A DNA stretch of 64,000 nt from Fulvivirga marina (GTDB lineage Bacteria; Bacteroidota; Bacteroidia; Cytophagales; Cyclobacteriaceae). Below are positions 1,813 through 18,589 of this stretch, piece by piece. The first letter of the stretch is position 1; the number at the start of each line of letters is the position of its first letter. The position numbers were made by a program, and so were the translations under genes. The notes under the pieces were generated by a model. It did no database searches, was not told where the DNA came from, and saw nothing but the letters and a program-made list of their open reading frames with translations. The stretch covers positions 257,430-321,429 of the forward strand of contig NZ_JAEUGD010000064.1 of the NCBI RefSeq assembly GCF_016775155.1, read 5' to 3'.

Positions 1813-2721
1813 TCAAGCCTTCGGACTTAAAATGGTTCCAAATTCAAGCCCTTTTGTAAATGATTTTGATTCCGAGAAATACTTTTTGGGCGGGTGTTTA
1901 TAGGGGAATAGCAATCCGCTGGGGCTATTTTCCGGATAAACCTCGGAATGACACTGGATCACAAACTTTTCTCCGGTAGGTAACGTATCATAGGATGTTT
2001 TGAATAGAGGGGTCTTTAGTTCTGCAATGCCATGCATAGCGGTCCACTCAACGGGCCATGAAAGAATTTCCAGCCAAAAGTTGTAAAGTTGTGGGGTCAA
2101 TTGATTTTGAGCAATTTTCAATATTTCATTGCCTAGGGTTACAAACTCTTCTGATTGTAACTTTGGGACACGGAATGGCATAAGGCTAATGCCCCAATCC
2201 TCCCAAAAATAGTTGGTATGAATATCTTGTTGAACCTTTAAGAATTGTTCTTTTTCTTTTATGATATCAGCAAGATATATCCATTTGGGATCTCTAATGT
2301 TCTGTTCACTAAACTCCTGCCAGGCATCCCAGTATGCTTTTGAAAAAGGAAGACCACAATTCCGAATGCCATCATTTAAAAAAGCTCTTACTGCTTTCCG
2401 TTTTCCTGCTACAACACATGTATAGTCTGCACCTCTGACTGTGGTTGTACTGGCTACGTTAAGCATATATGAGGCACTTGAAGCAGGTACTACCTCAGCA
2501 ACAAGACCTGAGCTTTCCAGTATTTTTTTAAACTGATACACACCATGGGTTTCAACATTATGAAACTGAACGGGAAATAGCTTTTGGCCTTCTTCACTTT
2601 GAAACAGCTTTTTAATCGCTACTGCAATTTCAGTAAACCTATATTCCCAGGTTCTTTTAAGTTCAAAGCTAGCCCAGCTTAACCTGCGGAAAGGTGGCAT
2701 TGTAAACTCTAATCGCGTCAT
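1813..2721 (-). CDS. Unknown protein of the radical SAM/HExxH modification cluster
   Basis: A 302-residue soluble protein of no family I recognise; no signal peptide or membrane segment is visible. The N-terminal part is rich in aromatic and basic residues (WASFELKRTWEYRF), and a late conserved-looking stretch reads PVEWTAMHGIAELKTPLFK. It starts 2 nt after the HExxH gene stop, so it is the last gene of the four-gene minus-strand unit, and tight coupling implies a shared job. It could be an accessory or substrate-recognition protein, or a diverged partner enzyme; it has no HExxH or Cys cluster of its own. The role is inferred only from position. Confidence 0.6.
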   Translation of the reverse strand: MTRLEFTMPPFRRLSWASFELKRTWEYRFTEIAVAIKKLFQSEEGQKLFPVQFHNVETHGVYQFKKILESSGLVAEVVPASSASYMLNVASTTTVRGADYTCVVAGKRKAVRAFLNDGIRNCGLPFSKAYWDAWQEFSEQNIRDPKWIYLADIIKEKEQFLKVQQDIHTNYFWEDWGISLMPFRVPKLQSEEFVTLGNEILKIAQNQLTPQLYNFWLEILSWPVEWTAMHGIAELKTPLFKTSYDTLPTGEKFVIQCHSEVYPENSPSGLLFPYKHPPKKYFSESKSFTKGLEFGTILSPKA

Positions 2722-2723
2722 AA

Positions 2724-3524
2724 TTAATGAATAGGTGTAAAGTATGCCCTTCCTTTAGCAATGGTGTCTTTGGACCAGGATAGGAAACTCTCAATAAAGG
2801 GTTCCCCTAGTTTTGTGGGCTTAATATTCCTTTCAAGGACTTCTTGTCCTGTTTGCATTCTTTTCAATGTATCATTGGTTAATATTTTCCAGGTTTCATG
2901 ATCCTGGTGAGTGGGATACTTCTTCAATAAAATTAAGTCAAGGTAGAGTATATGTATAAATGAATATTGAGCATGCAGAACTGCAGCCATAGGGCGTTCA
3001 GTATCCTTGATACTACTATAGTACATTGCTTCCGCAGGGTTACTAATCCATTCAGAAGCAGAATTCATCGTAATTCCTAATGAAAAAAGCTTTAAATGAG
3101 CCATTTCATGCACCATAGCTTCAGCGAGGGGAAAAGGATCATTGGTGGTCAAATAAATTAATCCTGGTTCATCCCAGTGGCACCCTGAAGAAGATCCAAA
3201 AGGATTTGACTCAAAAAATTCTAATTGAATGGGATTGATGAAAGACACAAAGAATGGAAACTGTTCTTTCATTTCAGGCCAATCCAAAAGATAATCGATT
3301 GATTTGGAAATCATTACGTCTTCGGGAGTATGGTTATACATTCCTGAATAGGGACATTCGTGGTGATAATGACCTACTGCAACCCGATTGTCAAAACATG
3401 TAAATAATACCTTTGACGTTGATTTTACTTTTGGTCTTATTAGCGAAGTGTCCTTCAACCTTTTAATCACCTCTAAGTCATAGTGGTCTGGTTGTGGAAA
3501 GGCTATTTTGTCCCAAGCTATCAT
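2724..3524 (-). CDS. HExxH-motif protein, probable alpha-ketoglutarate-dependent peptide beta-hydroxylase
   Basis: A 266-residue protein with the metal-binding motif HEMAH at residues 139-143, inside PLAEAMVHEMAHLKLFSLG, plus a preceding Cys/His/Trp-rich stretch SSSGCHWDEPGLIYLT. HExxH proteins encoded beside radical SAM/SPASM enzymes of the FxsB type are now named aKG-HExxH peptide beta-hydroxylases in protein-family resources, and fused radical SAM-HExxH enzymes have been reported to make cyclophanes and hydroxylate side chains of peptides. Here the two activities are separate genes: the ATG begins directly after the radical SAM stop codon (0 nt gap). A simple metalloprotease is the alternative, but the genetic coupling to a radical SAM maturase favours peptide modification. 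The substrate is inferred to be the 1044-residue protein of this operon. Confidence 0.7.
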   Translation of the reverse strand: MIAWDKIAFPQPDHYDLEVIKRLKDTSLIRPKVKSTSKVLFTCFDNRVAVGHYHHECPYSGMYNHTPEDVMISKSIDYLLDWPEMKEQFPFFVSFINPIQLEFFESNPFGSSSGCHWDEPGLIYLTTNDPFPLAEAMVHEMAHLKLFSLGITMNSASEWISNPAEAMYYSSIKDTERPMAAVLHAQYSFIHILYLDLILLKKYPTHQDHETWKILTNDTLKRMQTGQEVLERNIKPTKLGEPFIESFLSWSKDTIAKGRAYFTPIH

Positions 3525-4679
3525 TTACGTAAAGTTTTGAATTAGATACTGTAGCGTAGGGTTCTGACCATTAGCCCAATGGTTAATCAGTTTCTCCTCA
3601 ATCTGCTTTCTTTGAGGGTGTAGCGAAACTGGAGACAAGCCTTCATTCAACATCTCCTGTTCAGCTTCTTCAAATAGGTATTTCCATAAACCACAATTCT
3701 CACTTTTATTTCTCCACTCACCATCAATTGCTGTTCCGGGACATTGCCCCTTGCAGGACAGAAAGAAACGGCAATTACGACATCCTCCATATTCATCAGG
3801 AGTATGATAAAGGGCTATATAACGCTCATACCCCATATTTGCTGGCTGCTGAAAGTTGATCCCTTCTTTGTCAGTAAGACCACAATTGTGCAAATTCCCC
3901 TCACCATCAATTCCATTGACTGCTTCAGTGGAATAGGGGTCGCATGCTCGCCAGGTACAGGTTCCATGTTCATCTTCAGCAAGAAGCATTTGGTGCACAT
4001 CCCGAAAAATGTCAAACCTGAGATGCTTTAAGGTTTTCTCAAACTTTTTGTATGCTGAAAACACTGTAATATTCTCTTCGGCAGAAAAACTGTAGATTTT
4101 TCGAATAGCAGGATGGTCAATTTCCAGTACATGAAGTCGCGCAGAAGCAATTTCCAATGCATCCATCTCTCTAAGCCATTCAAACATCTTGGGGAGACGA
4201 TCCGGGCTGCTGTTACTCCGAGTAACCTGAATCTGTAATCCTATTGGAATTTTGGCCTGTCTCAATTGATGAATGGCCTTAATTGATCTTTTTGTCGCTT
4301 GACGAGTTTTGTCAATGGTTCCAGCCCATCGCACATCATTCAACTCTTCCGGACCATCAATAGAAATACCAACCTTTGTATTGTACCGCAAAAATAACTC
4401 TATATGTGCCTCATTAATAAGTGCTCCATTGGTCATGACACTTGTTTCTCCAAATTGTTGGTGTCCCCATTGAAGCAGATCTTCCAATGCTGTCATAGAC
4501 ATCAGTAAAGGCTCACCTCCAAATAAATGAAAAGGTTCCCCGTCTTCCAGGATTCTCTGCTTGACCAATTCCGGATGATATTGACTTCCTCCGTTACCAG
4601 CATCACGGTGCATGTTTTGGTAGCAATATTGACACGCTATGTTACATTTCACACCAAATGGTCTAACTTCTAACGCCAT
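3525..4679 (-). CDS. Radical SAM/SPASM peptide maturase (FxsB-like)
   Basis: Radical S-adenosylmethionine enzyme with two further iron-sulfur sites, of the type that modifies ribosomally made peptides. The SAM-cluster motif CNIACQYC (Cys12, Cys16, Cys19) is unusually close to the N-terminus, followed by the SAM-binding GGEP at 54-57. The C-terminal SPASM/twitch region carries Cys241, 246, 266, 300, 303, 309, 313 and 329, including CRNCRFFLSCKGQCPG. The 384 residues are complete. The order is substrate candidate, radical SAM, HExxH protein, unknown protein. FxsB-type enzymes occur with HExxH domains in other phyla. Likely chemistry is crosslinking or another side-chain modification at unactivated carbons; the exact bond cannot be read from sequence. 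Confidence 0.85.
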   Translation of the reverse strand: MALEVRPFGVKCNIACQYCYQNMHRDAGNGGSQYHPELVKQRILEDGEPFHLFGGEPLLMSMTALEDLLQWGHQQFGETSVMTNGALINEAHIELFLRYNTKVGISIDGPEELNDVRWAGTIDKTRQATKRSIKAIHQLRQAKIPIGLQIQVTRSNSSPDRLPKMFEWLREMDALEIASARLHVLEIDHPAIRKIYSFSAEENITVFSAYKKFEKTLKHLRFDIFRDVHQMLLAEDEHGTCTWRACDPYSTEAVNGIDGEGNLHNCGLTDKEGINFQQPANMGYERYIALYHTPDEYGGCRNCRFFLSCKGQCPGTAIDGEWRNKSENCGLWKYLFEEAEQEMLNEGLSPVSLHPQRKQIEEKLINHWANGQNPTLQYLIQNFT

Positions 4680-4704
4680 TGAATATTATTTATGCAGTAA
4701 TTAA

Positions 4705-7700
4705 TCAAAAAACCTTCACATGAGGCAACTTAACGTGCTTAATATGTGGTGCTTTAATGTGTTTGATATGAGGCGCTTTGATATGCTTAAGGTGTGGTAA
4801 TAGATCATCTACGACACTAATAGGAAAGCCTACTACCTTAAGAATATCATTTAAGGCATTGTCACCCAGATCAAAAACACCTTTTAGCACATCCGAAACA
4901 ACATTCACGGGTTCTCCAATTGCTTTTAATGCAGAACCAACTTCTTCGGCTGTTTTTCCAATGCCTTTTAAAATTTCTGCAACAGCCCTTATGGGTTGAG
5001 CAAGTACTACTTTAAGAACATTAGCGATTTCAGCGGCAGTATATCCGATTGCATTGAGTATTCCTGCAATAACTTGCTCTGACATTTCAAACAACTCGCT
5101 AAGAACTTCACCAACTTCTTCCGCCAGGTATCCGGCCTCTTTCATGGCATTAGCAATTTCTTGTGCAGATTTTTCAAATCCCGCCTTAAGCGCTTTCCCC
5201 GTGTCGATTGCGATGTAGCCTACATTCTTCATCAATTTAGCTGAAGCTTCCAGTGTTTCTTCGAAGTGGTGAGCCAGCGCTTTTCCAACCTTTTCCATAA
5301 CTTCGCCAACAAATTCAATGGCTTTGTCCAGTACGGCCTCCAACCACTCCAGGGCATTCTGAAGAAGATCTTCAAATATCTTAGCAACGTTTTCAAGTAT
5401 ATATTGAACCAGATATTCTGGTAATTTACGTACATCAGTAACCTCAACAGTCAAGGTTCCCAGGTTGAATGTTTTTCCATTCCATTCAAACTTTGCGGAT
5501 ATATAGCTACTGAAGCTATTATCTTTAAAGCTGGCTCCAAAGCCTCCAAAAACGGCTGTATTCAGCTTTATATTACCTAAATCCAAAGGAAGGGCTATGG
5601 AGATCCCAGTCAATTGTATATCCAGTTCCGAGTTTGCTTCAAAATCAGTAATACTCTTAAACGATACTTTTAAAGACTGACTAAACAATCCGGCAATGTT
5701 TTCTCTGAGCTCGAACATGATGCCGTCATTGCCTATCTCCGCATCAAGACCTGCTTCAACAAGGCCTAAAACAGAAACATTTGCCGAGCAGGTGAAATAT
5801 GGACTCTGTTGCGTGTCGAATTGCATCATAGCACCCCCTGGAGAAACCGTTGCAGCACCTTGATAACCGGTAGGCGTTCCCTTACCATTACCAGTGATCT
5901 CCAGGAGGTTACCACCTACCCGAATAGGGTCTAGAATAAAGGCCCCACTTATGTTTTTTTCAGATGTGATTTTTAATTCTGAGTAAACATGAGTCCCAAA
6001 AATTTGCATTATTCCACTTAGACCCAAGCCAGGATAGGCCAGTGCCCCGTTGGCCTGTTGAAGTGGAGTAGGGGATCCACACCAATAAAGCATAACCTGA
6101 TGGAAACTAATGGCATTGAGGAAATCGGGTAAATCCAGATTTTTATTCGTCACTGCCGTTATGCAAGTATCCAGGCTCAATTCATCAAGGTACATGGATA
6201 GAAGAATTGGAGCGGTGGCGCCTCCCTGCGTTGTAAATATAATCGAAAACTCATTGTTGCCCGGAATTTCTTCCGGACTCAGCGGAGTTACACTTTCTGG
6301 CAAATTAGAAGGCTTATCCGGACCAATGTAGAACGCACCGCTGGCACCAATATTAATATTAAATGGATTCAATTGGGCTTGAATCATAAGTTGGAGCGTG
6401 GATAAATGTATACCGGGAAAACCAAAAGGTGGCGGAAAGCTTTCAAGTTCTTTCTCCACAGAAAAACTACCGGAAATACTGTTTGCCCCTAAACGGATAC
6501 TACCTGGAAGCGCTATGTTTAATGGCGGCAAACTAAAATTAATCAAACCACTCACTTCCACACTTGGTGGAATCGCGCTTAGACTTACCTCAGGGTCTAT
6601 CAAACCAAATATATTTATACCTCCGATAGAAAGATCAATATCTTTCGGAATCCTGATATCCAGTGAAAAATCCGGGGTTGTATCTCTTATATTCCACACA
6701 ATGAAATGAGTACCATCACCTATGATGCCCTCTACTACGGACAGTAAATCACCCAAAACCCCATCGCTATCAGAAAGTTGAGAGAGCAATGCAATGTTCA
6801 AGCCTGGCTTCAAAATCATTTTGTCGTCTGCCGCTTGGCCGAAGTGTATAAGTTCCTTACCGGGAATAAAGTCATTGCTCAGAATAATTCCGTATTGCTG
6901 GATGGTGAGGAAATTGAAGGGAGTCAATAACTGCCCTAATATACCTGGGAGGTCTCCCGGGTGATGACCTTCAGACTTGGGGACACCCACCAACAAAACC
7001 CTGAGGCGACCATTTTCTTCCGTTATCAAACCACTCACGTTTAAATTCTCAAAGGGAAACCCCAATGCTGATGAGGTAAACTTTAAAGAATTTTGATTTA
7101 ACAAGGTAAAAGCAAAGTCCTGAAGCGTAAGGTTAAATTCCGGAGCTATATTCGCCATAGATGGTGATAAACTATCTTGCAGAGTACTGGCTACTAACTG
7201 CCTAATTTCATCTTCGCTATTGATTTGATGATATGATTCAAAAAACTGTGAAGTTTCAGGACTGGCCGACCCATCTAATTGGATATAGTGTTTCAAGGGC
7301 GGTCTGGATGCTTTTTTATAGGTGATCTCCATCTGTTGGGAGGAGCCAATTGTATTAAGCTTAGCCGAACGATCATTGCCTGGTGCACCTCCAAGCCTAA
7401 TCATCAGATTATTAAACTTTTCAAATCCTTTCACACCACAAATTTCGATACAGCCTACAGAAGCATAAGCGCCATTACTTTGAGAGAGAGGAACATCCGG
7501 ACCATCATGAATCAAAAAATTACCATATACCTGCCATGCTCCATCCTCTGTTGATGGAGCGCTATGCACTGAATATTCAGGAAGCCACGCTTTGATAATA
7601 TGAGTTTGTTCATCCGCAAGTCCCACTACTCGGGGAGACGACGTTGTAGTTCTTTGTTGAACCCCAAACCGGAAGACTTCAAAGGTTTCTTCAATGTTCT

Positions 7701-7839
7701 TCCCGGAATCGTCAGTGCCACGAACATGGAGTTCATAAGTGGGAATTAAAAAGAGTTTTTTGCCATCTCCGGCGGGGTAGGCCCAGGTAAGTGCTTCCCC
7801 AACCGGAGTATTACCTACAGTAAGTTTTATTTTTCTCAT
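4705..7839 (-). CDS. Giant protein with L,D-transpeptidase-like N-terminus and His/Lys/Pro repeat tail; candidate modification substrate
   Basis: A 1044-residue protein and the first gene of the radical SAM operon (25 nt before the maturase). No signal peptide or membrane segment is seen. Residues about 60-160 hold a YkuD-like signature: His111, then 15 residues, then S127-V-G-C130, fitting the L,D-transpeptidase pattern H-x(14-17)-[S/T]-x-G-C. Residues about 230-800 are beta-rich, Gly/Pro-spaced and of unknown fold. Residues about 800-1010 are amphipathic helices with repeats of the kind LKxxGYxAxEVxxAL. The last 30 residues (1015-1044) repeat PH(I/L/V)KH(I/V)K(A/L) about three and a half times. 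Length, repeat tail and neighbours suggest that the tail is the region modified by the two downstream enzymes (inference). A lipid-binding or effector role is equally open. Confidence 0.7.
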   Translation of the reverse strand: MRKIKLTVGNTPVGEALTWAYPAGDGKKLFLIPTYELHVRGTDDSGKNIEETFEVFRFGVQQRTTTSSPRVVGLADEQTHIIKAWLPEYSVHSAPSTEDGAWQVYGNFLIHDGPDVPLSQSNGAYASVGCIEICGVKGFEKFNNLMIRLGGAPGNDRSAKLNTIGSSQQMEITYKKASRPPLKHYIQLDGSASPETSQFFESYHQINSEDEIRQLVASTLQDSLSPSMANIAPEFNLTLQDFAFTLLNQNSLKFTSSALGFPFENLNVSGLITEENGRLRVLLVGVPKSEGHHPGDLPGILGQLLTPFNFLTIQQYGIILSNDFIPGKELIHFGQAADDKMILKPGLNIALLSQLSDSDGVLGDLLSVVEGIIGDGTHFIVWNIRDTTPDFSLDIRIPKDIDLSIGGINIFGLIDPEVSLSAIPPSVEVSGLINFSLPPLNIALPGSIRLGANSISGSFSVEKELESFPPPFGFPGIHLSTLQLMIQAQLNPFNINIGASGAFYIGPDKPSNLPESVTPLSPEEIPGNNEFSIIFTTQGGATAPILLSMYLDELSLDTCITAVTNKNLDLPDFLNAISFHQVMLYWCGSPTPLQQANGALAYPGLGLSGIMQIFGTHVYSELKITSEKNISGAFILDPIRVGGNLLEITGNGKGTPTGYQGAATVSPGGAMMQFDTQQSPYFTCSANVSVLGLVEAGLDAEIGNDGIMFELRENIAGLFSQSLKVSFKSITDFEANSELDIQLTGISIALPLDLGNIKLNTAVFGGFGASFKDNSFSSYISAKFEWNGKTFNLGTLTVEVTDVRKLPEYLVQYILENVAKIFEDLLQNALEWLEAVLDKAIEFVGEVMEKVGKALAHHFEETLEASAKLMKNVGYIAIDTGKALKAGFEKSAQEIANAMKEAGYLAEEVGEVLSELFEMSEQVIAGILNAIGYTAAEIANVLKVVLAQPIRAVAEILKGIGKTAEEVGSALKAIGEPVNVVSDVLKGVFDLGDNALNDILKVVGFPISVVDDLLPHLKHIKAPHIKHIKAPHIKHVKLPHVKVF
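4708..4797 (-). repeat. 24-nt tandem repeats encoding PH(I/L/V)KH(I/V)K(A/L)
   Basis: Imperfect 24-nt direct repeats encode the last 30 residues of the giant protein: PHLKHIKA, PHIKHIKA, PHIKHVKL, then PHVKVF. Each unit has two His and two Lys at fixed spacing and one Pro. The DNA copies differ mainly at codon third positions and in conservative Ile/Val/Leu changes, so the peptide pattern appears maintained by selection rather than by recent duplication alone. Confidence 0.85.
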
Positions 7840-8101
7840 AAAAGAAATTCACATGAAACTTTATCAGCTTTGAATATAGCTTTAAAATAGAGATATCTTT
7901 AACATGATTAAGTTAATTGATGTGAAAATTTCAATTAACATGAGGCGGACCTGACAGCTGATCTACAACCTCTTACTTAAAAAACCTGGAAAAAGGGAAG
8001 ACGGACATAAAGCTTCAAAGAGCAAGAGGCGATAGGGAGGTTTACAACCTGCAACATATTTCCTTCATATACCATTACTCTTCAAATGTTATTGAAAAAT
8101 G

Positions 8102-8121
8102 CCCAAGGTTGGGTATTGATT
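8102..8121 (+). promoter_or_regulatory. Quasi-palindromic element, copy 1
   Basis: CCCAAGGTTGGGTATTGATT lies 43 nt before the start chosen for the membrane-protein gene. It matches a second copy at 8926-8945 in 18 of 20 positions; only the two central bases of the CCCAA/TTGGG inverted repeat are swapped (GG here, CC there). Both copies sit shortly upstream of a gene, which suggests a shared operator or promoter part. No other copy was noticed. The rest of the gap from 7840 to here shows no gene. Confidence 0.5.
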
Positions 8122-8163
8122 CAATTGATGCAAATGATTAATTTCTATAAAAGAAAAGAAATC

Positions 8164-8811
8164 ATGGACAGACTTAACCTTAACAATCTATCGTATAGAA
8201 AATTGAGAAGACTAATAGGGTACCTGGGTATAGCCCTGCCAGTATTACTATTTTTATACAGTCAATTTTTCGATCATGAAAAAGCATTTTTTGAAGTCGA
8301 GCATTCCATAAGCTTCTACTACTATACAAAAATGAGTACCATTTTTACAGGTATTTTAATCAGCTACGGGTTGATTTTATTTACCTACAGAGGTAAGTGG
8401 GAGTTGGAAAACAAATTAACAAATATTGCAGGTGTATTAGCCCTGGTTGTGGCAATAGTTCCAACCATGTTTACCGGTAGCACCACCTTATACGCTCACA
8501 ACAGCTTACTTTGGAGAGGTGTAATACATAACCTTTCCGCCGCAGTTTTTATCTTTATACTGGGCTACATAGTGCTAAAATTCTTCGCACAGGAAGATAT
8601 GTTTCGGTCCCTTTATCTATTTCTGGGAGTTATGGTTATGGTAGGTCTGACACTCGCTATATTCTCAGTCTTTTATGAAATTATTAAAGAGGGCAAAGAG
8701 CTATTTAAAGGAGCCATTTTTTGGGGAGAAACCATTAGCCTCTTTGCCTATGGGGCAGCGTGGATAAGGAGAGGTGTTCACGTTAACACCAATTCAGTTG
8801 ATAATGAATGA
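8164..8811 (+). CDS. Multi-pass membrane protein (DUF998-like)
   Basis: About 215 residues with roughly six hydrophobic segments (LIGYLGIALPVLLFLYSQFF, TIFTGILISYGLILF, IAGVLALVVAIVPTMF, LSAAVFIFILGYIVL, LYLFLGVMVMVGLTLAIF and a final one). The layout, an early FF-D-H stretch after TM1 and charged HxN/H turns, resembles the small DUF998/Frag1-like membrane proteins. The reading frame is open upstream to 8086, but I choose the ATG at 8164 (MDRLNLNN) because the upstream extension overlaps the quasi-palindromic element at 8102 and reads as poor coding sequence. No function can be assigned. It stands alone between the modification cluster and the RHS toxin. Confidence 0.6.
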   Translation: MDRLNLNNLSYRKLRRLIGYLGIALPVLLFLYSQFFDHEKAFFEVEHSISFYYYTKMSTIFTGILISYGLILFTYRGKWELENKLTNIAGVLALVVAIVPTMFTGSTTLYAHNSLLWRGVIHNLSAAVFIFILGYIVLKFFAQEDMFRSLYLFLGVMVMVGLTLAIFSVFYEIIKEGKELFKGAIFWGETISLFAYGAAWIRRGVHVNTNSVDNE

Positions 8812-8925
8812 TTTACACATCATGAGATAGAAAGTAATTTTCAATTTAGGCCACCATAACAACCGCAAGCTATAACCATTTGACTCATTTGACAGAGCAT
8901 GGTATACATACGATTGGATAAAATA

Positions 8926-8945
8926 CCCAACCTTGGGTATTGATT
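8926..8945 (+). promoter_or_regulatory. Quasi-palindromic element, copy 2, upstream of the RHS gene
   Basis: CCCAACCTTGGGTATTGATT sits 84 nt before the RHS start. The extended inverted repeat TACCCAA-CC-TTGGGTA spans 8924-8939. The sequence after it (TTTATAATATC) is A+T-rich and could hold the promoter. It matches copy 1 at 8102 except for the two central bases, so the membrane-protein gene and the RHS toxin may answer to the same regulator (inference). Confidence 0.5.
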
Positions 8946-9029
8946 TTATAATATCTAAGACCTAATTTAAGTTCAGGCCGTTGAGCCGTTGAAATGACTC
9001 TGTAGGATTAAAACTAAACCAGTAAGCCT

Positions 9030-12000
9030 ATGAAAGAGCAACCGACTACACCCGGGGAGGGTGATAATGCTCGTGATCTAAACGAAAGTAACTCCTCTAA
9101 TAATGTATCCAACCTGCAAAGGGCTTACGAAAGTGCTATTCTTAAAACTCCCTTAGATATAAAAACCGGGGAAGCACCCAGTCTAAACCGTTCTCCTTTC
9201 AACAGCATAGGGACATTCTGGCATAACATCATCAAGCTGCTTCGTAAGCTTCTGAAACAGAAGGAAGAAACGGAGACAACTGAATCTACTGAAGAAACAG
9301 GGGGGACAGGAGAGACAGAAACAATGGAAAACACAGAAGAGACTGAGGAAACAACGGAAGATACTGAGACTACTGATGCTACTGAAGAAACCGAACAAAC
9401 GGAGGAAACCTCTGAAGAAACTACAGAAACAACAACCTATGAACCATGTACAGCCAAACTGGTAGGTCCTGAATGTGTTTGCGTTGACGAGATACACACA
9501 TACAAAGTAATTTCTCAAAACTGCCCGGATGGCAAATGCAGGAATTGGAAGATTGATAATCCTTCGATTGCCAAAATAACTTTTGAAGACAATTGTCAGG
9601 TTAAGGTTCTTGCTTTAAGCGTGGGTGTTTTTAAAATCAGCGTACAATACCTCAATTATGGCCAGGTTATAAAATTAGAAAAACAGGTACATGTCTACAA
9701 AGTAGAGCATGTAAAAGGCGGCACAACCAGTGGTCCGGTCACAACCACTCCACTCATTCAACCCCATCCGTTTATTAAAATCACTTCACCTGACCCAACA
9801 GTCGATCATTGTTTGGATGCCGACCATTATAAAGTGCACCTCCGTAAGCTGGAACAAGGCTATAATCAATATGTATCGGATTCTATAGAACTGGATGAAT
9901 TCATAAACCAATACTTCGAAGTTGAAGTACAATTCAAAGGGTCACAACTTGACTTTTTTAAGGAGACAGAAGCTTTACAGTGGCAGATCAATAATGACGC
10001 CCCGGTTAGTCTTTTAAAAAACCAGGAATTTACTGACACAACCTTTGAGACCAAAATTCCAGGTGAAGATAACTTTAACAACCGAGTGGTTCTCTTTAAA
10101 GGTATAGGAGAATTCATCATCAAATTTATTGCCCTTAATGCCATTCACCGAGCAGGAACTGATTGGGCCAATGTTTTCATTTCGTTTACCAAAGATCAAT
10201 GGGATGCTATAACGAAGTTAAAGGAAGAACTGGCCGTTTTGATCTTCAATGCGAGCCATAACCCTCACGGGGGCCATGCTTCAGCCATTTTGAACAAGCA
10301 AAAGGAGATTAAAGCTGCTTATTACAATGCGCTGAAAAACCCTTGTATAAAAATAGCTGAAAACCACCAGGAAAATCAGGTTTTTGCACTGGGAATGACT
10401 TGTAAAACCAGAACCAAAGTCGAGAATGATGACCGGGCAGGCACTACCATTCAGGCTACAGTAACGTCTAACTATCCGGGAGGACAAGACATCAGGTCTA
10501 CAGACCTCGAGAAGCAGGGTGCAACTACATTTCTCACCGACAAACCTGTAAAAAATTACTGGGTCACAAAACACTACTACGGTGGCAATGAATATGACTG
10601 GGATAATGATGGCTTATTAAAAGGCGAACATGATGAGATATTGAATTCTACATATCAATGCTGTGGAAATGATATCGATATCTTCGGCGTGGAGATTGAC
10701 AGTGATGATTGTGTTACTATAAATAAAAATGAGACAATCACCCTAAAAGCGATAGGGTTGCCTGACTCTACACCTACAGCAGGGCCAGGCTATTACCAAT
10801 GGTCTGTCATCGCCAAACCCAATAGAGATGCACAGGCCGATATAACACCTGTTGCATGGAACACCAGTCCCACAGCTCAACTAAAAGTAGATACATCCGG
10901 AATTTATACGGTTAAAGTAGAATATATGCTTGGCGGACGGTCCTGTCCGCTTACCTACGCTTTGCATGATATTAAGGTGTTCTTCAAAACTGCTGATCAA
11001 CTTCAGTGGAAAATCAGGAGATTAGGGTCCTATAGCAGTGGACTGGAAAAACACGTGGATAGACCTTACTATCAGTTACGGGAGCAAAAACCCCAGTTAG
11101 CTGCAGAAATGTTGATCGAGCCCGCTCTCGGAGCTTCTGGCGGTTCTTCAGCAACTGTCATAGGCAAAAAGTTCGCAGGTAGCTTTCTTATTCCCCTGGA
11201 GTTGGCATTTTCAAAAGACCTTACACTAAGAGCCTATTATAAGGACTTTTCGCCTGGCCTGGGGTCGGACGATTATGATGATTTCAGCGGACCTCCATAT
11301 GTGAAGATTGATCCGCAGAGCCCTATGGAAGCTAAAGTTGAGCTTAATACGGAAAAGGATATTCATGCCATACACCTGATCAACATCAACTATGAAAATC
11401 TAATGCGTCTCAAAGGTCAGGCTGTTCCTATACATTTTGTAAACAAACCTCCTGATACCCTTTCTTGTCCTGACGACACAGATACTACTGAAGAATCGGA
11501 GGAAACAACCACAGAAGTGGAACGTCAGGACCTTTCTCCTTTGGTCAATTTACTGGTTTATAATCGTGATTTGGGCAACGCCAAGGCATCTAATGGATTT
11601 CAGCTTATCAGCAATGCCGGTGACATGCATAATATCCCAAACGGCAACGTCTATTTAAATATTCCTGTATTTGAAACGCGAGGTCATGGCGAAAACCTTA
11701 TTATCAGCCTTTCATACAACAGTTTGCAAGCCAGCTATCAGGACAGTCTGGGAATGCTGAAAGTGTTGAATGGCCTTACCGAAAGTCAGGTCCGGGATTA
11801 CTACTGCGAAAATACGATAGGCAAAGGTTGGAGCCATGAATACGGTATTTACATTAAAGAATATATTAAACCCAGAACGCCCAACGGCCTGGTTCTCGAT
11901 CAATATGCCGAACTCGTTTGTCCTGATGGTAATCGCATTCAGTTTGTAGCCTATTCCTCGGTTGAAGATACAAATGATAATAATTTACCACCAGCGAGCC

Positions 12001-15000
12001 AGCCCGACAGTAATGCTCCGGTTACTTATCAACTGGTGTATCCGGGCGAGCACTGGATGGGTAATGCCGAAATCGGGCATTCACTTAAATTAAAGAGGGA
12101 GACAGACAGCCATGGAGATGTCACCTATGAATTGAAAGCCATTAACGGTAAGCAATGGCATTTTGACAAAAATGGAGCACTCATAAAAATCACCACGCCA
12201 CATATTGAAGGCAGTTCCGGAATGAACCCGCTAACACTTGATAAAGCCGGAAGCCACCTTACCGTGAAAGATTCAAGTGGCCGGGAGACCATTATTCGTG
12301 AAATTCCTGATAACTCAACATATAGCGGCTATGCTACCATATTACACCCTGACAATAACCGCACTTATATTGACTTGGCCCAGGGTCGCGTACAACAGGT
12401 GAGTGTTGCCAGTAACCCGGCCTGGAAGTTTGAGTATTACGACAAAATGGGTGAATTATACTTAACAGACCCCGGGACATTTCTGCGATCGATCAAAGAC
12501 CCTAATGACGTAGCAAACCTTTATGAATACTACGATGGAAACTGGTTCCACCGGATTCCCCAAAATGTAGCAGAATGGTTTTGGGGGCGTCTTGGGCGAA
12601 ACCAGAAGGCCCAGGCAGATGACGCCCGAGAGCATTTATGGAGATACAAACCTCTGAGCGCTGATAAACAAGAGGTAGTATACCGAAACCCCGGAAACGT
12701 TGAGTTCGTCTATGAATTTCATTTTGAAGAGATGGCCGTTATTGCGCTTGCCTATGTACCCCAGCACAAAGACCCCGTCAGCTACAAATTGTTGGGAGTG
12801 CCTAACTATGATCAGGTGCTGGCCTCAGGAATATCACTCCCAACGCTGCCGGTCGGCCGGTATGGGTATCATATGAAAACAAAACTGATTGCCCGGGTAG
12901 AAGATATACATAAGAATATAACCACTTTTGAATACGAAGGGCGTGATAATAACACTACATTTCTGATGTCCAAACGGATAGAGCCGGATGAAATTGAATT
13001 AAAATTCGAATACAATTCAAACTATCAGTTATGGAAAAAGTACAACCCAAAAAAGACCAGCGATACCAACACCCCGGCATATATTGAATATAAATATGAC
13101 TCCAGGCTATTGTTTGAAGAGGTAATTTACCCAGCTCCCGAGGCCAATGGCCAACCCGTCAAGGAAACATGGATTTTTAATGCTAATTCAGGCTTACTGG
13201 AAAAGCAAACCAACATGCGCGGAATTGTCACTTCCTTTAAATATGGTGAAGGTCAGCGAGATCTTCATGGGCTAAAACTACCAACAAGCAAGTCCATTGA
13301 AAAGACCATCGAACCTACCCAACAAACAACACTCACCTGGGAAATGACTTATGACAAAATGGGCAGGACCACAAAATCGTATGATCCTGTTCATGGAAGC
13401 GAAACTGACTATGAATACAATTCAATAGGGTTATGTAGCAAAGTCAAAGAGATCGCCATTATAACCTATCTGGGCAGTGCATACGGTGCAGAAACAACCA
13501 GGCATTATGACGGACTGCATAACCTTACAAGTCTCTATGGTCAGGGAGGTTATGAAGAGTGGAAGTACAACAAACATGGAGAAATCATTGAATACCGCGA
13601 CAAATCTGCTCATAAAACATTTAGCCAGTACCATAAAACAGGTGCCCTGAGCAAGAAAACCAACCCCGATGGTACCGTCACCGAGCTGGTTATAGATGAG
13701 CTTAACCGTATTGTAAGGGCTGATTATCCTGAACCAGATACAAGGGCTGCTCGCTATCGTTCACATATATTCACCGATATTTACAGCTATGATGACCCCA
13801 ATGGCAAAGCCTACGAGCAACGATATACTATTCCCGCAGTAAAATCTCCGATTTTTGACCCTCAGGCATATTTGGTAAAAACCATAGAACAAACCTATAC
13901 CAAGGGAAGGGTTTCGGAGAAAAAAGAAAGCTTCGGAGCAAGTCTCAGCCCTCTAACAGCCAAGTATTACTATGACATTTGGGGAGAACGCTCACGGTTA
14001 GAAACCTATGATGGCACAACGCTGGTTCATACCGAATCTTACAAAAGAGACCAGTGGGGCAGAGAGTATAAAGTCACTGAAAAAGCGGGAAGTAAAGAAC
14101 GGTCTGAGAAAATTACCCTGGATAGCAACGGCAATATACTGGAGAATTACCCGGCTTCATTTAGTACTTTCAACCCTGGCGAAACTCCTAAATCAGTTTT
14201 TATCTACGATGAACTCGACCGCCAGATAGAAGCTAAAGATAGCTACGGTAACACCACGAAAAAAGTAGTCTTTCAGGATTTTGGAAACAATGATGCATCC
14301 TCAAGTTTGTCCAGCAGGACCTCCAAAATCGTTGAATCCAGTCAGGATCCATCAAAAGCAGTGAATCAAGGAGGGCTGATCATCACCTCAGAGATCATTC
14401 TTAATAGGAGAGGGCTTGTAACCGAAAAATATGTAGGGGAGATGCAGGCAGACCTGAAGCAAGTCAACAAATACGATAGTTATGGAAGAAATGTTGGTCA
14501 AATTGATCTGAATGGCACAAAAACTAACCTCACCCTGGATAGCTCCGGCAAACCTATTGCCATTACGATATATAACCGACAGCAAAAGTCAAATATTCAG
14601 TGGAGTCAGTTTCAGGCTTCCAACGCTGCTCATATTGAAGAAAAACAATTTAATTCACTAATAGATTATAGCTGGCACGGTCAGGTGAGTAAGCAGCGGG
14701 ATGCAGATGGCTGGGAAGAGAAAAAATATGATGCATTCAAACGACTTATAACCCATAGAAGAAGAGATGGAGTTATGGAACAGGTCACCTATGATGCATT
14801 GGGCAGAATTATCGCAAAATCCATAGGTTCACGTATTACTCATTCCTTTGTTTACGATGATAACAACAGACAAATAACGGCTACATACATCAGTAGCCAA
14901 TCGAACACCCGTATACTCTTCACCTACGATTGGGATCATAAGCTACTGGAATATAAATATCTTCGAAACGACAGTGTAGCGGGGCCTTTTGAGAACAACT

Positions 15001-17639
15001 TCAGCGTAACGCAGGAATATTCAGATTTCGGCAAGTTAAAATTGAAAAAATACTTCCGTGGAAACCGGGAGATTGCCAGACAGGAATATGAATACAATGA
15101 TGCGGACCTGCGAACAAAATTTAAAGTGAAGCTTTCTCCGGTAGGTCGCACTCCGTTTGAAACTACCCAGGAATATCAATACGATGCCAATAAACTTCTT
15201 AGAAAGATTGAGGGAGGCGTTTACGAAAGCTACCTGTTTGCTTATAATCATGGGCGAACGCTTAAAAAAGTAGGACGCCCTATGCTGGGTGTTGCTGGCA
15301 ATGATTTCGCCAATACAACTTCATATGATCATGACCCGCAAGGTAATCTTACCGGCATCATAGAAAAGTCCGGAAAGGAAGGGCAGGATGAGATATTGTC
15401 TCACCAGCGGTTATTCTACAATACTCGCCAGAAGGAAAGCTGGGAGCAGGCTACTCCATGGAGTGCTAATGACAAAGATTTACTTCCTGATAAGGTACCC
15501 ATGCTAAGAGGGATGACCTTGAAAAGGCATTTTGCAGAAGACCCTGTCAATAACCCCATCGACATGTTTGCCCAGGATCTCGCCTACGACGGAGTAGGGC
15601 AACAGATCGCTTCTGTAACCCAATTTAAGTCTGTTCCCGAATTGCTCATGGACAGCCGGTACGCTGTTACAAATTCGCTGCGAACAGCCAGGAATTCTTA
15701 TCGAAATATCAGGGATTACAATTATGACGGGGGAGCTATTCAATCAGAAAGTAACTTTACTGTAACGCAAACCATGCCATTCGGATCTCCGGGAATGGTT
15801 ATCCAACGCTCAGGAGTCAGAACACCCGTTAGCCCCAAAGATGATCCTGTCGGTTTTGTAGAGACCAATACTTATTTTGGCCCTGAAGGTGCCCTTACCG
15901 AAAGGAAGTTTGTGCAGGAAAATATTCATGGATCAGGCACAGATGTCGTTTCCCAAAACTTCCAGAACCGCAGAAGGTTCGCCCATGATGCTATGGGAAG
16001 AATGACTGTGTTGGGAGAACGCACAGAAATAAGGACCAGCACCAACCGCATGACCCCCGAAGATACGCCCGCAGCCAACCATAGTTTTGAATTTTTAACC
16101 CGGTTTATTTATGGACCTGAAGGAGAGGAGTTATTCAGAATGTCACAGGGTACGGGGCTTCCTTCCACACTTTATGGAATCACGCTGTATGATGGCGCTC
16201 AAAAAGTGGCAGAATATGAAAGCGACGGTAATATTGTCCGGTATTTCAGTGGCATTCCAGGAATAAATACAAGGTTATCTGCCACCTCCTATGACGAAAA
16301 CAACATGGTTATCGGTCATGCTTATTACCGCTCAGACTACAAAGGCACAACACTTTTTACCACAGATTTTGAGGGTAAGGTTGTCATCGATTATTGGCTT
16401 AGCGCTCCTGAAGGAGACCGTGACCTGTTTGGGAGAACCATTGGTCCGGGAGCAGTTAGATCATCAGAACGTGACCAACAGCGCATCAAAGAGTTATGGT
16501 CATTCTTTGTACCAGCAGGCCCGCGCATAGATATGATGATGATTACCAGCCATGAGCTGGAACAAAGGGCAGAAAGAATAGCGTCTCAGGGGCTGAACCC
16601 GGTCTTTCCGTCAGGTGGCCGTAATAATTATGGCTTTTCCATTGGCTATCCGCACAAATGGAATGTCAACCAGGTTGAATCAAACACGGCCCGCTCTATT
16701 GCACAGGGCACTGTGGATTTCCTCCGGGGTATGGGCGATACCATTTCCTTTGGACTTACTAAACCGCTACGTGAAGCCATCCATGGAAAAGATGGAGAGA
16801 TTATCAATGCTGAAGCTTACCTCGGAGGCTCTGTTGCGGGCATTGCCGTATCGGTTACACTTGGTTTTGGGGTAGGCTCAACGGCAACCGCAGCCAAGGC
16901 CTCTGCGTGGGCAGTAACGGCAGGAAGAGCCTACATTATCGGGGGCGACATTATTGGTGTAGCTCAAAGTTCATTCAACATTTATAGAGGCAAACACACC
17001 GCCCTGGATTATTTGGGCTTCTTACCCCTTGTAGGGTTTGCTGCCTCCAAAGCATTTCAGGGTGTAAAAAAGGCTGCATCCCTCTATGCAGATCCGGTCT
17101 GGCGAGCCAACTTTCATTACGCCAGTAACCTACACAGCTGGCAACGTGAAGGATTCCAGTATGCTGCTGATCCGTTGATGTTTTTGCTCTTTCTGATTGA
17201 TGATCTCAGGGCTGGTGCATATCAGGCCAACCGGTATAAAATGATGGCACTAAGAGAAGCCATCGAGACAGGAGAACTCACTCAGCGTTTCAAAAAATAT
17301 GGCCACATGAGTGAAAATGTAAGGCAGAAGCACCACATTGCAACGGACAAAAACAGCGAGTTTACCGGAATGTTTGAAGAGCTTTTTGAGCGCGCAGGCA
17401 TGACACTTAACGACCCCGCCAATAAAGTAAGACTAATCGGTCATCATCAATTCAGTCTTTTCGGCCATTCGCCTCACTATCATGAATGGGTATACAAAGT
17501 ACTGAGTAGAGGAACTTATTTCATGTATGGAGATGATCTGGCGCAAGTTTTACGTTCCCGGTTGTCGGATATAGGCCAGGTCCTTCACGGAAATCAGGCA
17601 CTGCTCAAAAGTAATCAACCCATTACTCTACTCTTATAA
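9030..17639 (+). CDS. Giant RHS-repeat polymorphic toxin with C-terminal AHH-type nuclease
   Basis: A 2869-residue protein. The N-terminus has no signal peptide; residues 78-136 are a Thr/Glu low-complexity linker, and a second such tract lies near residues 814-830. Ig-like segments with Cys pairs follow (from about 139). From about residue 850 onward the chain enters an RHS shell with dozens of YD-type repeats (YDxxGR). The end of the shell lacks the canonical DPxGL cut motif. Residues about 2560-2700 are a hydrophobic pretoxin helix region (GDTISFGLTKPLREA), and the tip contains KHHIATDKN (His2768-His2769) and GHSPHYHEW (His2813, 2816, 2818), fitting the AHH class of HNH/EndoVII nucleases. 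Role: contact- or injection-delivered DNase against competitors. A Fic gene follows after 11 nt; no ordinary immunity gene is obvious. Confidence 0.85.
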   Translation: MKEQPTTPGEGDNARDLNESNSSNNVSNLQRAYESAILKTPLDIKTGEAPSLNRSPFNSIGTFWHNIIKLLRKLLKQKEETETTESTEETGGTGETETMENTEETEETTEDTETTDATEETEQTEETSEETTETTTYEPCTAKLVGPECVCVDEIHTYKVISQNCPDGKCRNWKIDNPSIAKITFEDNCQVKVLALSVGVFKISVQYLNYGQVIKLEKQVHVYKVEHVKGGTTSGPVTTTPLIQPHPFIKITSPDPTVDHCLDADHYKVHLRKLEQGYNQYVSDSIELDEFINQYFEVEVQFKGSQLDFFKETEALQWQINNDAPVSLLKNQEFTDTTFETKIPGEDNFNNRVVLFKGIGEFIIKFIALNAIHRAGTDWANVFISFTKDQWDAITKLKEELAVLIFNASHNPHGGHASAILNKQKEIKAAYYNALKNPCIKIAENHQENQVFALGMTCKTRTKVENDDRAGTTIQATVTSNYPGGQDIRSTDLEKQGATTFLTDKPVKNYWVTKHYYGGNEYDWDNDGLLKGEHDEILNSTYQCCGNDIDIFGVEIDSDDCVTINKNETITLKAIGLPDSTPTAGPGYYQWSVIAKPNRDAQADITPVAWNTSPTAQLKVDTSGIYTVKVEYMLGGRSCPLTYALHDIKVFFKTADQLQWKIRRLGSYSSGLEKHVDRPYYQLREQKPQLAAEMLIEPALGASGGSSATVIGKKFAGSFLIPLELAFSKDLTLRAYYKDFSPGLGSDDYDDFSGPPYVKIDPQSPMEAKVELNTEKDIHAIHLININYENLMRLKGQAVPIHFVNKPPDTLSCPDDTDTTEESEETTTEVERQDLSPLVNLLVYNRDLGNAKASNGFQLISNAGDMHNIPNGNVYLNIPVFETRGHGENLIISLSYNSLQASYQDSLGMLKVLNGLTESQVRDYYCENTIGKGWSHEYGIYIKEYIKPRTPNGLVLDQYAELVCPDGNRIQFVAYSSVEDTNDNNLPPASQPDSNAPVTYQLVYPGEHWMGNAEIGHSLKLKRETDSHGDVTYELKAINGKQWHFDKNGALIKITTPHIEGSSGMNPLTLDKAGSHLTVKDSSGRETIIREIPDNSTYSGYATILHPDNNRTYIDLAQGRVQQVSVASNPAWKFEYYDKMGELYLTDPGTFLRSIKDPNDVANLYEYYDGNWFHRIPQNVAEWFWGRLGRNQKAQADDAREHLWRYKPLSADKQEVVYRNPGNVEFVYEFHFEEMAVIALAYVPQHKDPVSYKLLGVPNYDQVLASGISLPTLPVGRYGYHMKTKLIARVEDIHKNITTFEYEGRDNNTTFLMSKRIEPDEIELKFEYNSNYQLWKKYNPKKTSDTNTPAYIEYKYDSRLLFEEVIYPAPEANGQPVKETWIFNANSGLLEKQTNMRGIVTSFKYGEGQRDLHGLKLPTSKSIEKTIEPTQQTTLTWEMTYDKMGRTTKSYDPVHGSETDYEYNSIGLCSKVKEIAIITYLGSAYGAETTRHYDGLHNLTSLYGQGGYEEWKYNKHGEIIEYRDKSAHKTFSQYHKTGALSKKTNPDGTVTELVIDELNRIVRADYPEPDTRAARYRSHIFTDIYSYDDPNGKAYEQRYTIPAVKSPIFDPQAYLVKTIEQTYTKGRVSEKKESFGASLSPLTAKYYYDIWGERSRLETYDGTTLVHTESYKRDQWGREYKVTEKAGSKERSEKITLDSNGNILENYPASFSTFNPGETPKSVFIYDELDRQIEAKDSYGNTTKKVVFQDFGNNDASSSLSSRTSKIVESSQDPSKAVNQGGLIITSEIILNRRGLVTEKYVGEMQADLKQVNKYDSYGRNVGQIDLNGTKTNLTLDSSGKPIAITIYNRQQKSNIQWSQFQASNAAHIEEKQFNSLIDYSWHGQVSKQRDADGWEEKKYDAFKRLITHRRRDGVMEQVTYDALGRIIAKSIGSRITHSFVYDDNNRQITATYISSQSNTRILFTYDWDHKLLEYKYLRNDSVAGPFENNFSVTQEYSDFGKLKLKKYFRGNREIARQEYEYNDADLRTKFKVKLSPVGRTPFETTQEYQYDANKLLRKIEGGVYESYLFAYNHGRTLKKVGRPMLGVAGNDFANTTSYDHDPQGNLTGIIEKSGKEGQDEILSHQRLFYNTRQKESWEQATPWSANDKDLLPDKVPMLRGMTLKRHFAEDPVNNPIDMFAQDLAYDGVGQQIASVTQFKSVPELLMDSRYAVTNSLRTARNSYRNIRDYNYDGGAIQSESNFTVTQTMPFGSPGMVIQRSGVRTPVSPKDDPVGFVETNTYFGPEGALTERKFVQENIHGSGTDVVSQNFQNRRRFAHDAMGRMTVLGERTEIRTSTNRMTPEDTPAANHSFEFLTRFIYGPEGEELFRMSQGTGLPSTLYGITLYDGAQKVAEYESDGNIVRYFSGIPGINTRLSATSYDENNMVIGHAYYRSDYKGTTLFTTDFEGKVVIDYWLSAPEGDRDLFGRTIGPGAVRSSERDQQRIKELWSFFVPAGPRIDMMMITSHELEQRAERIASQGLNPVFPSGGRNNYGFSIGYPHKWNVNQVESNTARSIAQGTVDFLRGMGDTISFGLTKPLREAIHGKDGEIINAEAYLGGSVAGIAVSVTLGFGVGSTATAAKASAWAVTAGRAYIIGGDIIGVAQSSFNIYRGKHTALDYLGFLPLVGFAASKAFQGVKKAASLYADPVWRANFHYASNLHSWQREGFQYAADPLMFLLFLIDDLRAGAYQANRYKMMALREAIETGELTQRFKKYGHMSENVRQKHHIATDKNSEFTGMFEELFERAGMTLNDPANKVRLIGHHQFSLFGHSPHYHEWVYKVLSRGTYFMYGDDLAQVLRSRLSDIGQVLHGNQALLKSNQPITLLL

Positions 17640-17650
17640 ACCTGAGAGCC

Positions 17651-18589
17651 TTGGATATACCACCGCAAGAAGACCTGCCCCTTGAAGAAGCCATCTCAAG
17701 GCTACATGAGCACCGGAAATTCATAGACCAGTACAGTTTGCAGCCAGGATTATTTTCCGGACCGATACACCGGGAGTACAAGCACCATAATGCTTCTTTT
17801 CCCATAGAAAACACATTATATAAAAAAGTATTTGACTACCTCGTATATCATCATCATGAAATGATCAATTACCCCGGCCGTGAAGTGCTTTTAACCATCC
17901 ATACGCTGCTGGCAGGAGAAGGATTCTTTCGCCAGAAAGGTGTCAAGATAGGTCGGTTTCGTCACTTTCCTCACTCTTCTGAAGTTCCTTCCGCGATAGA
18001 CCGCATGTTTGAAGATATCAGCAATGAGCAGGATGCAATACTACAATCCATCAAGGCACATGTTGAAATTCTACTTATTCACCCATTTGCAGATGGAAAT
18101 GGTCGATCTGCCAGACTAATGGCCGCCTTTATACTCTTGAAAGCGGGCTTCAAGTCCACATTATTCACTGCAGTAGAGCAACATTTCTACCATAATCCAC
18201 GGCAGTATATCCAATGGCTTGTGAAATACAGAACAGGGGAAATTAACAAGGAGGACGTGTGGCGGGGCTTTGCCAATGCCATGTATCTCCACAGCTATTA
18301 CGGCTATTATATAAGAAAGCGTGCCTCTGAAATAGTTGATCAACTTACCGGTAGTGGCATGGCATATGAAGAGGCATGGAAACAACTTTATGAATACGAT
18401 GCTAAACCAGAATTTAACGGTAGAAAACCTGGTTGGCCTAGCCAATACCTTAAACCCATGGCCTTACAAAAACAGGCACTATTCCATAAAGACGAAGCAG
18501 CATACCGGAATTTTGAATTTCAGTTAAGGCAGTTAACAGGTGCGTATATAAACACCCCAAAAACAGGGACGATTAGAACTGTAAAATAA
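17651..18589 (+). CDS. Fic domain protein (probable AMP transferase)
   Basis: Complete Fic active site HPFADGNGRSAR, the HPFx(D/E)GNGRxxR motif whose His transfers AMP or another group to target hydroxyls. Upstream, GEGFFRQKGVKIGRFRHFPHSSEVP fits the Fic flap region. The 312-residue length uses a TTG start at 17651, since no ATG occurs in frame before about residue 58; the TTG lies 11 nt after the RHS stop. I see no clear inhibitory (S/T)xxxE(G/N) helix in either terminus, so it may lack autoinhibition. Position directly behind a nuclease toxin suggests a second effector, a regulator of the toxin, or an unusual immunity factor; none can be chosen from sequence. Confidence 0.8.
   Translation: MDIPPQEDLPLEEAISRLHEHRKFIDQYSLQPGLFSGPIHREYKHHNASFPIENTLYKKVFDYLVYHHHEMINYPGREVLLTIHTLLAGEGFFRQKGVKIGRFRHFPHSSEVPSAIDRMFEDISNEQDAILQSIKAHVEILLIHPFADGNGRSARLMAAFILLKAGFKSTLFTAVEQHFYHNPRQYIQWLVKYRTGEINKEDVWRGFANAMYLHSYYGYYIRKRASEIVDQLTGSGMAYEEAWKQLYEYDAKPEFNGRKPGWPSQYLKPMALQKQALFHKDEAAYRNFEFQLRQLTGAYINTPKTGTIRTVK

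Follow-up and report, generated by a model that had tools for sequence, protein, structure and literature searches.

Synthases of three-residue cyclophanes, as represented in the accessible passages of PMC11002830, act on aromatic-x-X substrates and link a ring carbon of the aromatic residue to the Cβ of residue i+2. The links reported there are His C2 to Arg or Ala and Phe C4 to Asn, with His known as the ring donor for YhhB and HaaB. These triceptide enzymes (XncB, OscB, YhhB and HaaB) are radical S-adenosylmethionine (SAM)/SPASM proteins, and their aromatic-x-X triplet is encoded next door in a small precursor peptide. In the ChlB/ChlH system, a cyclophane synthase is fused to an α-ketoglutarate-dependent HExxH (aKG-HExxH) hydroxylase and acts on the precursor of a ribosomally synthesized and post-translationally modified peptide (RiPP); PMC12636437 reports the hydroxylation of a cyclophane peptide at His and Asp by an HExxH enzyme. 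In addition, a 2024 paper (PMC11437467, available in part) deals with a phage module comprising a radical SAM enzyme, a DUF483 protein and an unknown protein, for which DNA modification was suggested. Here we compare these systems with a four-gene locus of Fulvivirga marina (Bacteroidota), situated at positions 1813-7839 of a 64,000-nucleotide stretch of contig NZ_JAEUGD010000064.1, here called the window. The locus encodes a protein of 1044 residues (A), a radical SAM/SPASM enzyme (B), an HExxH enzyme (C) and a fourth protein (D). A ends in a dense run of His-x-Lys (HxK) triplets, and we propose that it is itself the substrate of the enzymes encoded beside it.

The genes A, B, C and D follow one another in this order on the minus strand with intergenic gaps of 25, 0 and 2 nt, and the coordinates agree with the arrangement described in an earlier note made from the DNA letters. 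The C-terminus of A (4705..7839), LPHLKHIKAPHIKHIKAPHIKHVKLPHVKVF, contains seven HxK triplets within 27 residues (residues 1016-1042; 4714..4794), in the order HLK, HIK, HIK, HIK, HIK, HVK and HVK, the middle residue always being Leu, Ile or Val. Lys does not occur at +2 of any of the remaining 15 His residues of A, and none of 20000 shuffles of its last 60 residues matched seven HxK in 40 residues. When 350 open reading frames (ORFs) from the window and eight other loci were compared, at least five like triplets in 40 residues were found only in A (seven) and in its homologue at locus L009 (five). In the whole genome, a DNA pattern for HxKxxHxK, which demanded T as the middle base of the second codon, gave five matches, three of them within the A tail; a backward control pattern gave three. 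The earlier note had placed the proposed modification in the tail of the giant protein but had missed the HxK run, its key feature. Its claim that a small precursor gene is lacking was upheld: no small precursor-like ORF was present in the flanking gaps, where the six overlapping ORFs of 20-120 residues contained no HxK and at most one aromatic-x-[DNK] apiece. With the thresholds used, A, B and C each had one match in the 6.8-Mb genome.

B (384 residues; 3525..4679) matched Pfam Radical_SAM with an E value of 2e-12. It carries the CxxxCxxC ligands of the radical SAM cluster (residues 12-19; 4623..4646) and, between residues 246 and 329 (3693..3944), the cysteine patterns C246-x14-G-x4-C266 and CxxCx5CxxxC (from 300), which are of the SPASM type. 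The CxxxCxxC and SPASM cysteines are invariant across seven aligned B proteins, and the radical SAM/SPASM identity given to the second gene in the earlier note stands. The note had also compared B with FxsB-type enzymes, radical SAM proteins that can occur with HExxH domains; this could not be maintained, as B scored 39 bits against TIGR04269 (cut-off 370), and its nearest kin beyond L009, in the collections searched, are phage enzymes. The near-matches that follow sulfatase maturase among the NCBIfam models are AmcB and YhhB, and for the B relative of Thermus phage Cumys the AmcB cyclophane maturase model scored first. The best match of B among PDB profiles was ChlB (50.0 bits), followed by sulfatase maturase (48.7 bits). 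C (266 residues; 2724..3524) scored 57.7 bits against TIGR04267 (cut-off 40) and contains the motif HEMAH at residues 139-143 (3096..3110), with HExxH kept in all six aligned C proteins. By profile, C is an aKG-HExxH-type peptide β-hydroxylase, as both the HExxH assignment and the comparison made previously had implied.

For the product of the fourth gene, D (302 residues; 1813..2721), listed as unknown in the earlier note, no Pfam match was obtained up to E 0.1; the best NCBIfam match (E 0.21) was not meaningful. D nevertheless aligns with the DUF483-type partners of the phage enzymes, to which it is homologous, yet it is shorter than most of them. At four alignment columns, Cys is present in 32-34 of the 35 D proteins compared; the window D retains Cys at one of these columns, and so does its L009 counterpart. 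A fold model of D (predicted local distance difference test score, pLDDT, 82) gave no match in the PDB or BFVD at E ≤ 0.001.

The complete set, with its gene order kept, is present at L009, a locus of a Chitinophagaceae metagenome-assembled genome and one of three loci with C from a scan of genome contigs. The identities are 34% for A, 61% for B, 48% for C (matched part) and 31% for D; gene C is out of frame there. The A homologue, of 872 residues, adjoins B, lacks the N-terminal domain and ends in LPHIKIPLPHIKVSLPHVKAPHLKHIKLF, which has five HxK with a spacing unlike that in A. As L009 repeats the same genes in the same order, the four-gene set is not a chance line-up, and as the HxK spacing differs, it is the triplet that has been kept rather than the sequence. 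Three further relatives of A (L140, L136 and L137) have ends without an HxK run, and in the DNA examined around them no homologues of B, C or D were found. An HxK run ends A in both genomes found to bear the set, and in none of these three A relatives.

In the cellular genomes searched, the set is rare. B was found in one of 395 genomes of the phylum of the window (its own; E ≤ 1e-40), in one of 294 genomes of the family of L009 (L009 itself; E ≤ 1e-30), and in neither of the A-bearing relatives G047 and G102, a search that had no positive control. TIGR04267 matched one of the 395 genomes of the phylum, again the own genome, and C occurred in two of 149 genomes of the phylum to which an Armatimonadetes locus belongs. 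One of these two C loci, L020, had no A- or B-like gene among the ORFs up to 7 kb viewed by eye; the other, L010, begins at the contig end. Upstream of the Armatimonadota C homologue in L020 (47-1120) there is a radical SAM gene of a different type, which resembles an AmmeMemoRadiSam gene.

In the phage collection searched, the best matches of B are those of the Thermus phages phiLo (48.9% identity), Cumys (45.2%) and phiMa (44.7%), each over 98% of the protein; seven other records were weak. In Cumys, the B homologue comes after annotated baseplate and collar-fibre genes and a gene for a 343-residue protein consisting mostly of HxD triplets, and before a gene annotated DUF483, whose product is homologous to D. 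The layout in phiMa, with an HxD protein of 342 residues, is identical, and in phiLo two HxD-rich proteins are encoded further along on the opposite strand. The Cumys/phiMa module resembles the window set in having B (45% identical), a D homologue and a repeat-rich protein upstream, but its triplet is HxD and no C was seen, whereas the window set has HxK on A and includes C. The term 'HxD' does not appear in the available part of PMC11437467. The open-access literature covered (titles and abstract openings, in part, with subscription papers outside the scope) contained no link of these enzymes to tail proteins. A paper on coliphage N4, in the part available, was unrelated apart from a mention of HExxH.

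A profile of B detected 202 relatives in viral contigs, and the counts of loci given here refer to the best 80 of these 202. An ORF other than B with at least eight HxD and HxN triplets was present in 71 of the 80 loci, and an aromatic-x-X-rich ORF besides B in 73, when the FxN-type loci L044 and L059 are included; very long ORFs reach the threshold of eight easily, and 26 shuffled ORFs and two of 313 control ORFs also passed. Six like triplets within 40 residues were reached by 82 ORFs out of 2398, a total that takes in the B ORFs, against none of 2398 shuffled ones, and such density was seen in 65 of the 80 loci. Where at least 3500 nt of upstream DNA was available, 59 of 67 loci had a dense ORF upstream. 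Of the 70 loci with an HxD/HxN-rich ORF upstream, the nearest such ORF ended 66 nt or less from B in 48. A D homologue occurred in 67 of the 80 viral loci and a C homologue in five; two of three distinct viral C proteins scanned passed TIGR04267, the third (L031, 31.7 bits) failing. At L030 a repeat protein, C, B and D are found all together. The 1186-residue repeat ORF at this locus matched the central tail fibre J family (PHROG 31, E 4e-47) and Phage-tail_3, and its repeats are internal, being followed by 282 residues. The repeat protein of L039 is fibre/collagen-like. Among ten neighbouring ORFs from five loci, there were five tail-family matches (L066 twice, L101, L059 and L085), one to ribonucleotide reductase, one to an unknown family and three ORFs without a match. 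Outside the viral contigs, a B relative on a haloarchaeal plasmid is preceded by a 206-residue HxD-rich protein in a cluster that includes a baseplate J gene; for a second one (L021), no repeat protein was found among four translated stretches.

Two peculiarities were seen among the B relatives. Those of L023, L024, L025, L026, L165 and L207 carry a short HxD tail of their own, as if self-modifying. At L077 the B and D genes are each present twice, in tandem, and the single HxD/HxN-rich protein is encoded downstream and not upstream of them.

The composition of the repeats was examined in 57 non-redundant proteins (169-1471 residues, median 306), one of which (L045) is a doubtful ORF on the minus strand; the lengths, based on mechanical start assignment, may be too long. 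Of 1940 His residues in the repeat zones, 1585 (82%) had Asp at +2 and 252 (13%) had Asn, percentages that are inflated by the zones having been delimited with the same motifs; Gly was found six times and Pro twice. The scarcity of Gly and Pro at this position is informative. In L059, 66 of 105 Phe residues had Asn or Gln at +2, as did 37 of 43 in L044; these Phe-x-Asn/Gln repeats argue against metal binding. The repeats as a whole conform to the aromatic-x-X pattern on which three-residue-cyclophane synthases act. We also searched in the reciprocal direction. A pattern of four spaced HxD in viral-contig DNA gave at least 120 stretches, 64 of them with an in-frame ORF. Within the DNA covered, a B homologue was present for 30 of 38 viral ORFs with at least ten diverse HxD/HxN triplets. 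For simple or short HxD ORFs the number was two of 26, the ORF being B itself in both cases. HxK patterns in viral contigs yielded 11 stretches, with B in none of them.

Taking into account that, among the loci compared, the HxK run ends A only where the B/C/D set was found, that the homologous phage enzyme lies near proteins dense in a like motif, and that 30 of the 38 viral ORFs picked for diverse HxD alone have the enzyme in the DNA covered, we regard A as the likely substrate. The suggestion in the earlier note that the giant protein is modified at its tail is thereby supported at the genomic level, through the HxK ends, the phage neighbours and the reciprocal search; a full-sized substrate would, however, not be peculiar to this locus, as it looks like the rule in the family of B. 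The mechanism that we favour, and consider fairly probable, is that B, probably helped by D, joins the ring of His to the β-carbon of Lys in each HxK, which would turn the tail into a stiff chain with up to seven small rings (about -14.1 Da). C would act after B and β-hydroxylate residues of the tail, as ChlH does on the cyclophane peptide, and D would most likely be a substrate-binding or accessory subunit. A would not serve as a leader for removal; the modified protein itself would be the product. Most members of the family found here are from phages, in which the enzymes would act on proteins of tails and fibres rich in HxD, HxN or FxN triplets. Whereas the triceptide systems use small precursor peptides, the substrate here would be a protein of 1044 residues and in phages would be large proteins, and whereas ChlB and ChlH are fused, B and C are encoded by separate genes.

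A number of results weigh against this proposal. His-to-Lys and His-to-Asp rings are absent from the accessible passages of PMC11002830, and the HxK form is known from two loci. The top NCBIfam model for B is sulfatase maturase, and B falls below the cut-offs of all 25 models listed. ChlB is barely ahead of sulfatase maturase as its PDB match, a near tie that lowered our confidence in the cyclophane reading. C matched ChlH with an E value of only 0.46. With respect to the phage loci, seven of the 80 have no rich ORF besides B. Six of these seven have 3453 nt or less of upstream DNA, and the seventh, L026, has 4246 nt upstream, but its repeats are confined to the end of B itself. Like triplets at the density described above were missing from 15 of the 80 loci, and eight of the 38 diverse HxD ORFs had no B in the DNA covered; one of these eight, L217, is on the same contig as L039, where B occurs. 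A PHROG scan of seven repeat proteins assigned two to tail families and two to unknown families, with no match for the other three.

The near tie with sulfatase maturase, together with its first rank in NCBIfam, would also be expected if B acts on the His-x-X triplets of A by other radical chemistry, such as epimerization, dehydrogenation or formation of a C-N link, and the product is no cyclophane. Proteins with the radical SAM/SPASM fold catalyse reactions of many kinds. On the other hand, the occurrence of both His and Phe in the aromatic-x-X triplets and the scarcity of Gly at His +2 suit a link from the ring to Cβ, and a cyclophane maturase model gives the top score for the Cumys relative. 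We consider other chemistry unlikely, but it is the most probable of the alternatives.

We find it improbable that B and D modify DNA or a small molecule and that the His-rich repeats bind metal or are structural by themselves. Section 3.4 of PMC11437467, in the part available, places cyanobacterial homologues near deazapurine DNA-modification genes, and of five phage D proteins scanned, four resemble methyltransferases over a C-terminal stretch, one of them over the cut-off. There is no room for this stretch in D of the window (302 residues) or in the Cumys and phiMa proteins (312 residues). Against this reading, the repeat proteins and B co-occur in both search directions, the Phe of the Phe-x-Asn repeats in L044 and L059 cannot bind metal, and no DNA-modification gene was among the seven window proteins, a part of the window, that were family-scanned. 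The position of the HxK run at the extreme C-terminus, like that of RiPP cores, would fit an oversized RiPP precursor from which the modified tail is cut off as a small peptide. This is very improbable, given that family scans recognised no protease or exporter in the operon (D being of unknown family) and that at L030 the repeats are an internal part of a tail protein that continues for 282 residues beyond them.

As for the history of B, a tree was built from 59 B proteins (53 viral representatives and six others), with a midpoint root and deep forks left open. The window and L009 proteins paired with support, within a group of 49, likewise supported, whose other members all come from viral contigs. 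The cellular set probably derives from phages, with the sampling bias that the wide B scan took in viral contigs only. Our broader proposal is a widespread and so far undescribed system of protein hardening, in which radical SAM enzymes of phages would introduce three-residue cyclophanes by the tens into the proteins of tails and fibres, so that virions bear rigid poly-cyclophane rods. A few Bacteroidota would have acquired these enzymes, switched to Lys in place of Asp as the acceptor, added a hydroxylase and turned the set on the end of a giant protein of the cell. We hold this with only slightly more belief than doubt.

The remainder of A was also analysed. The N-terminal domain (residues 1-186; 7282..7839), with the pattern HxGP...GCxEI, is, judged by its distribution, a mobile unit, being missing in L009 and standing alone elsewhere. 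Small proteins that match it and share the pattern are encoded at L138 (4304-4663) and L139 (3753-4346) and had no Pfam match; the pattern somewhat resembles what we take to be L,D-transpeptidase signatures. The long helical repeats (residues 803-1013; 4801..5433) showed a weak likeness to tape-measure/minor tail profiles (PHROG 305, E 2e-6). These matches may be mere coiled-coil similarity, and we do not propose a role of A as a tail protein. A structure model of A from a two-sequence alignment contained helices but was poor (mean pLDDT 33) and unusable. The helical part was also matched in L133 (G357, contig C61), with an E value of 1.7e-10, within an open frame of 24709 residues.

In the window beyond the locus, two similar inverted-repeat elements, AATGCCCAAGGTTGGGTATT (8098-8117) and AATACCCAACCTTGGGTATT (8922-8941), lie at the start of and past the end of a gene for 241 residues (8086-8811). 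They are followed by a gene for a divergent RHS-repeat protein of 2869 residues with a C-terminal AHH nuclease-type domain (9030-17639) and, next to it, one for a Fic-domain protein (17651-18589); near the A relative of L136, an ORF looks, by eye, like YD repeats. No phage tail genes were recognised by eye in the ORF lists of the window, part of which was covered by the family scan. Elsewhere in the own genome (L278, contig C11), a cluster at 4610-13566 resembles an extracellular contractile injection system. It encodes a sheath-like protein of 530 residues (PF04984, 28 bits, below the cut-off of 31.4), along with ORFs that by eye are tube-like and baseplate-like. That this system might carry A as cargo is a remark only.

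Cyclophane chemistry has so far come from small peptide products, and here it is apparently written into full-length proteins. Cultured phages are among the carriers, so that one mass spectrum could show the modification. If our proposal is correct, it would explain the radical SAM module of phages, hint at what the DUF483-type partner proteins do, and reveal a way in which protein fibres are stiffened chemically in nature.

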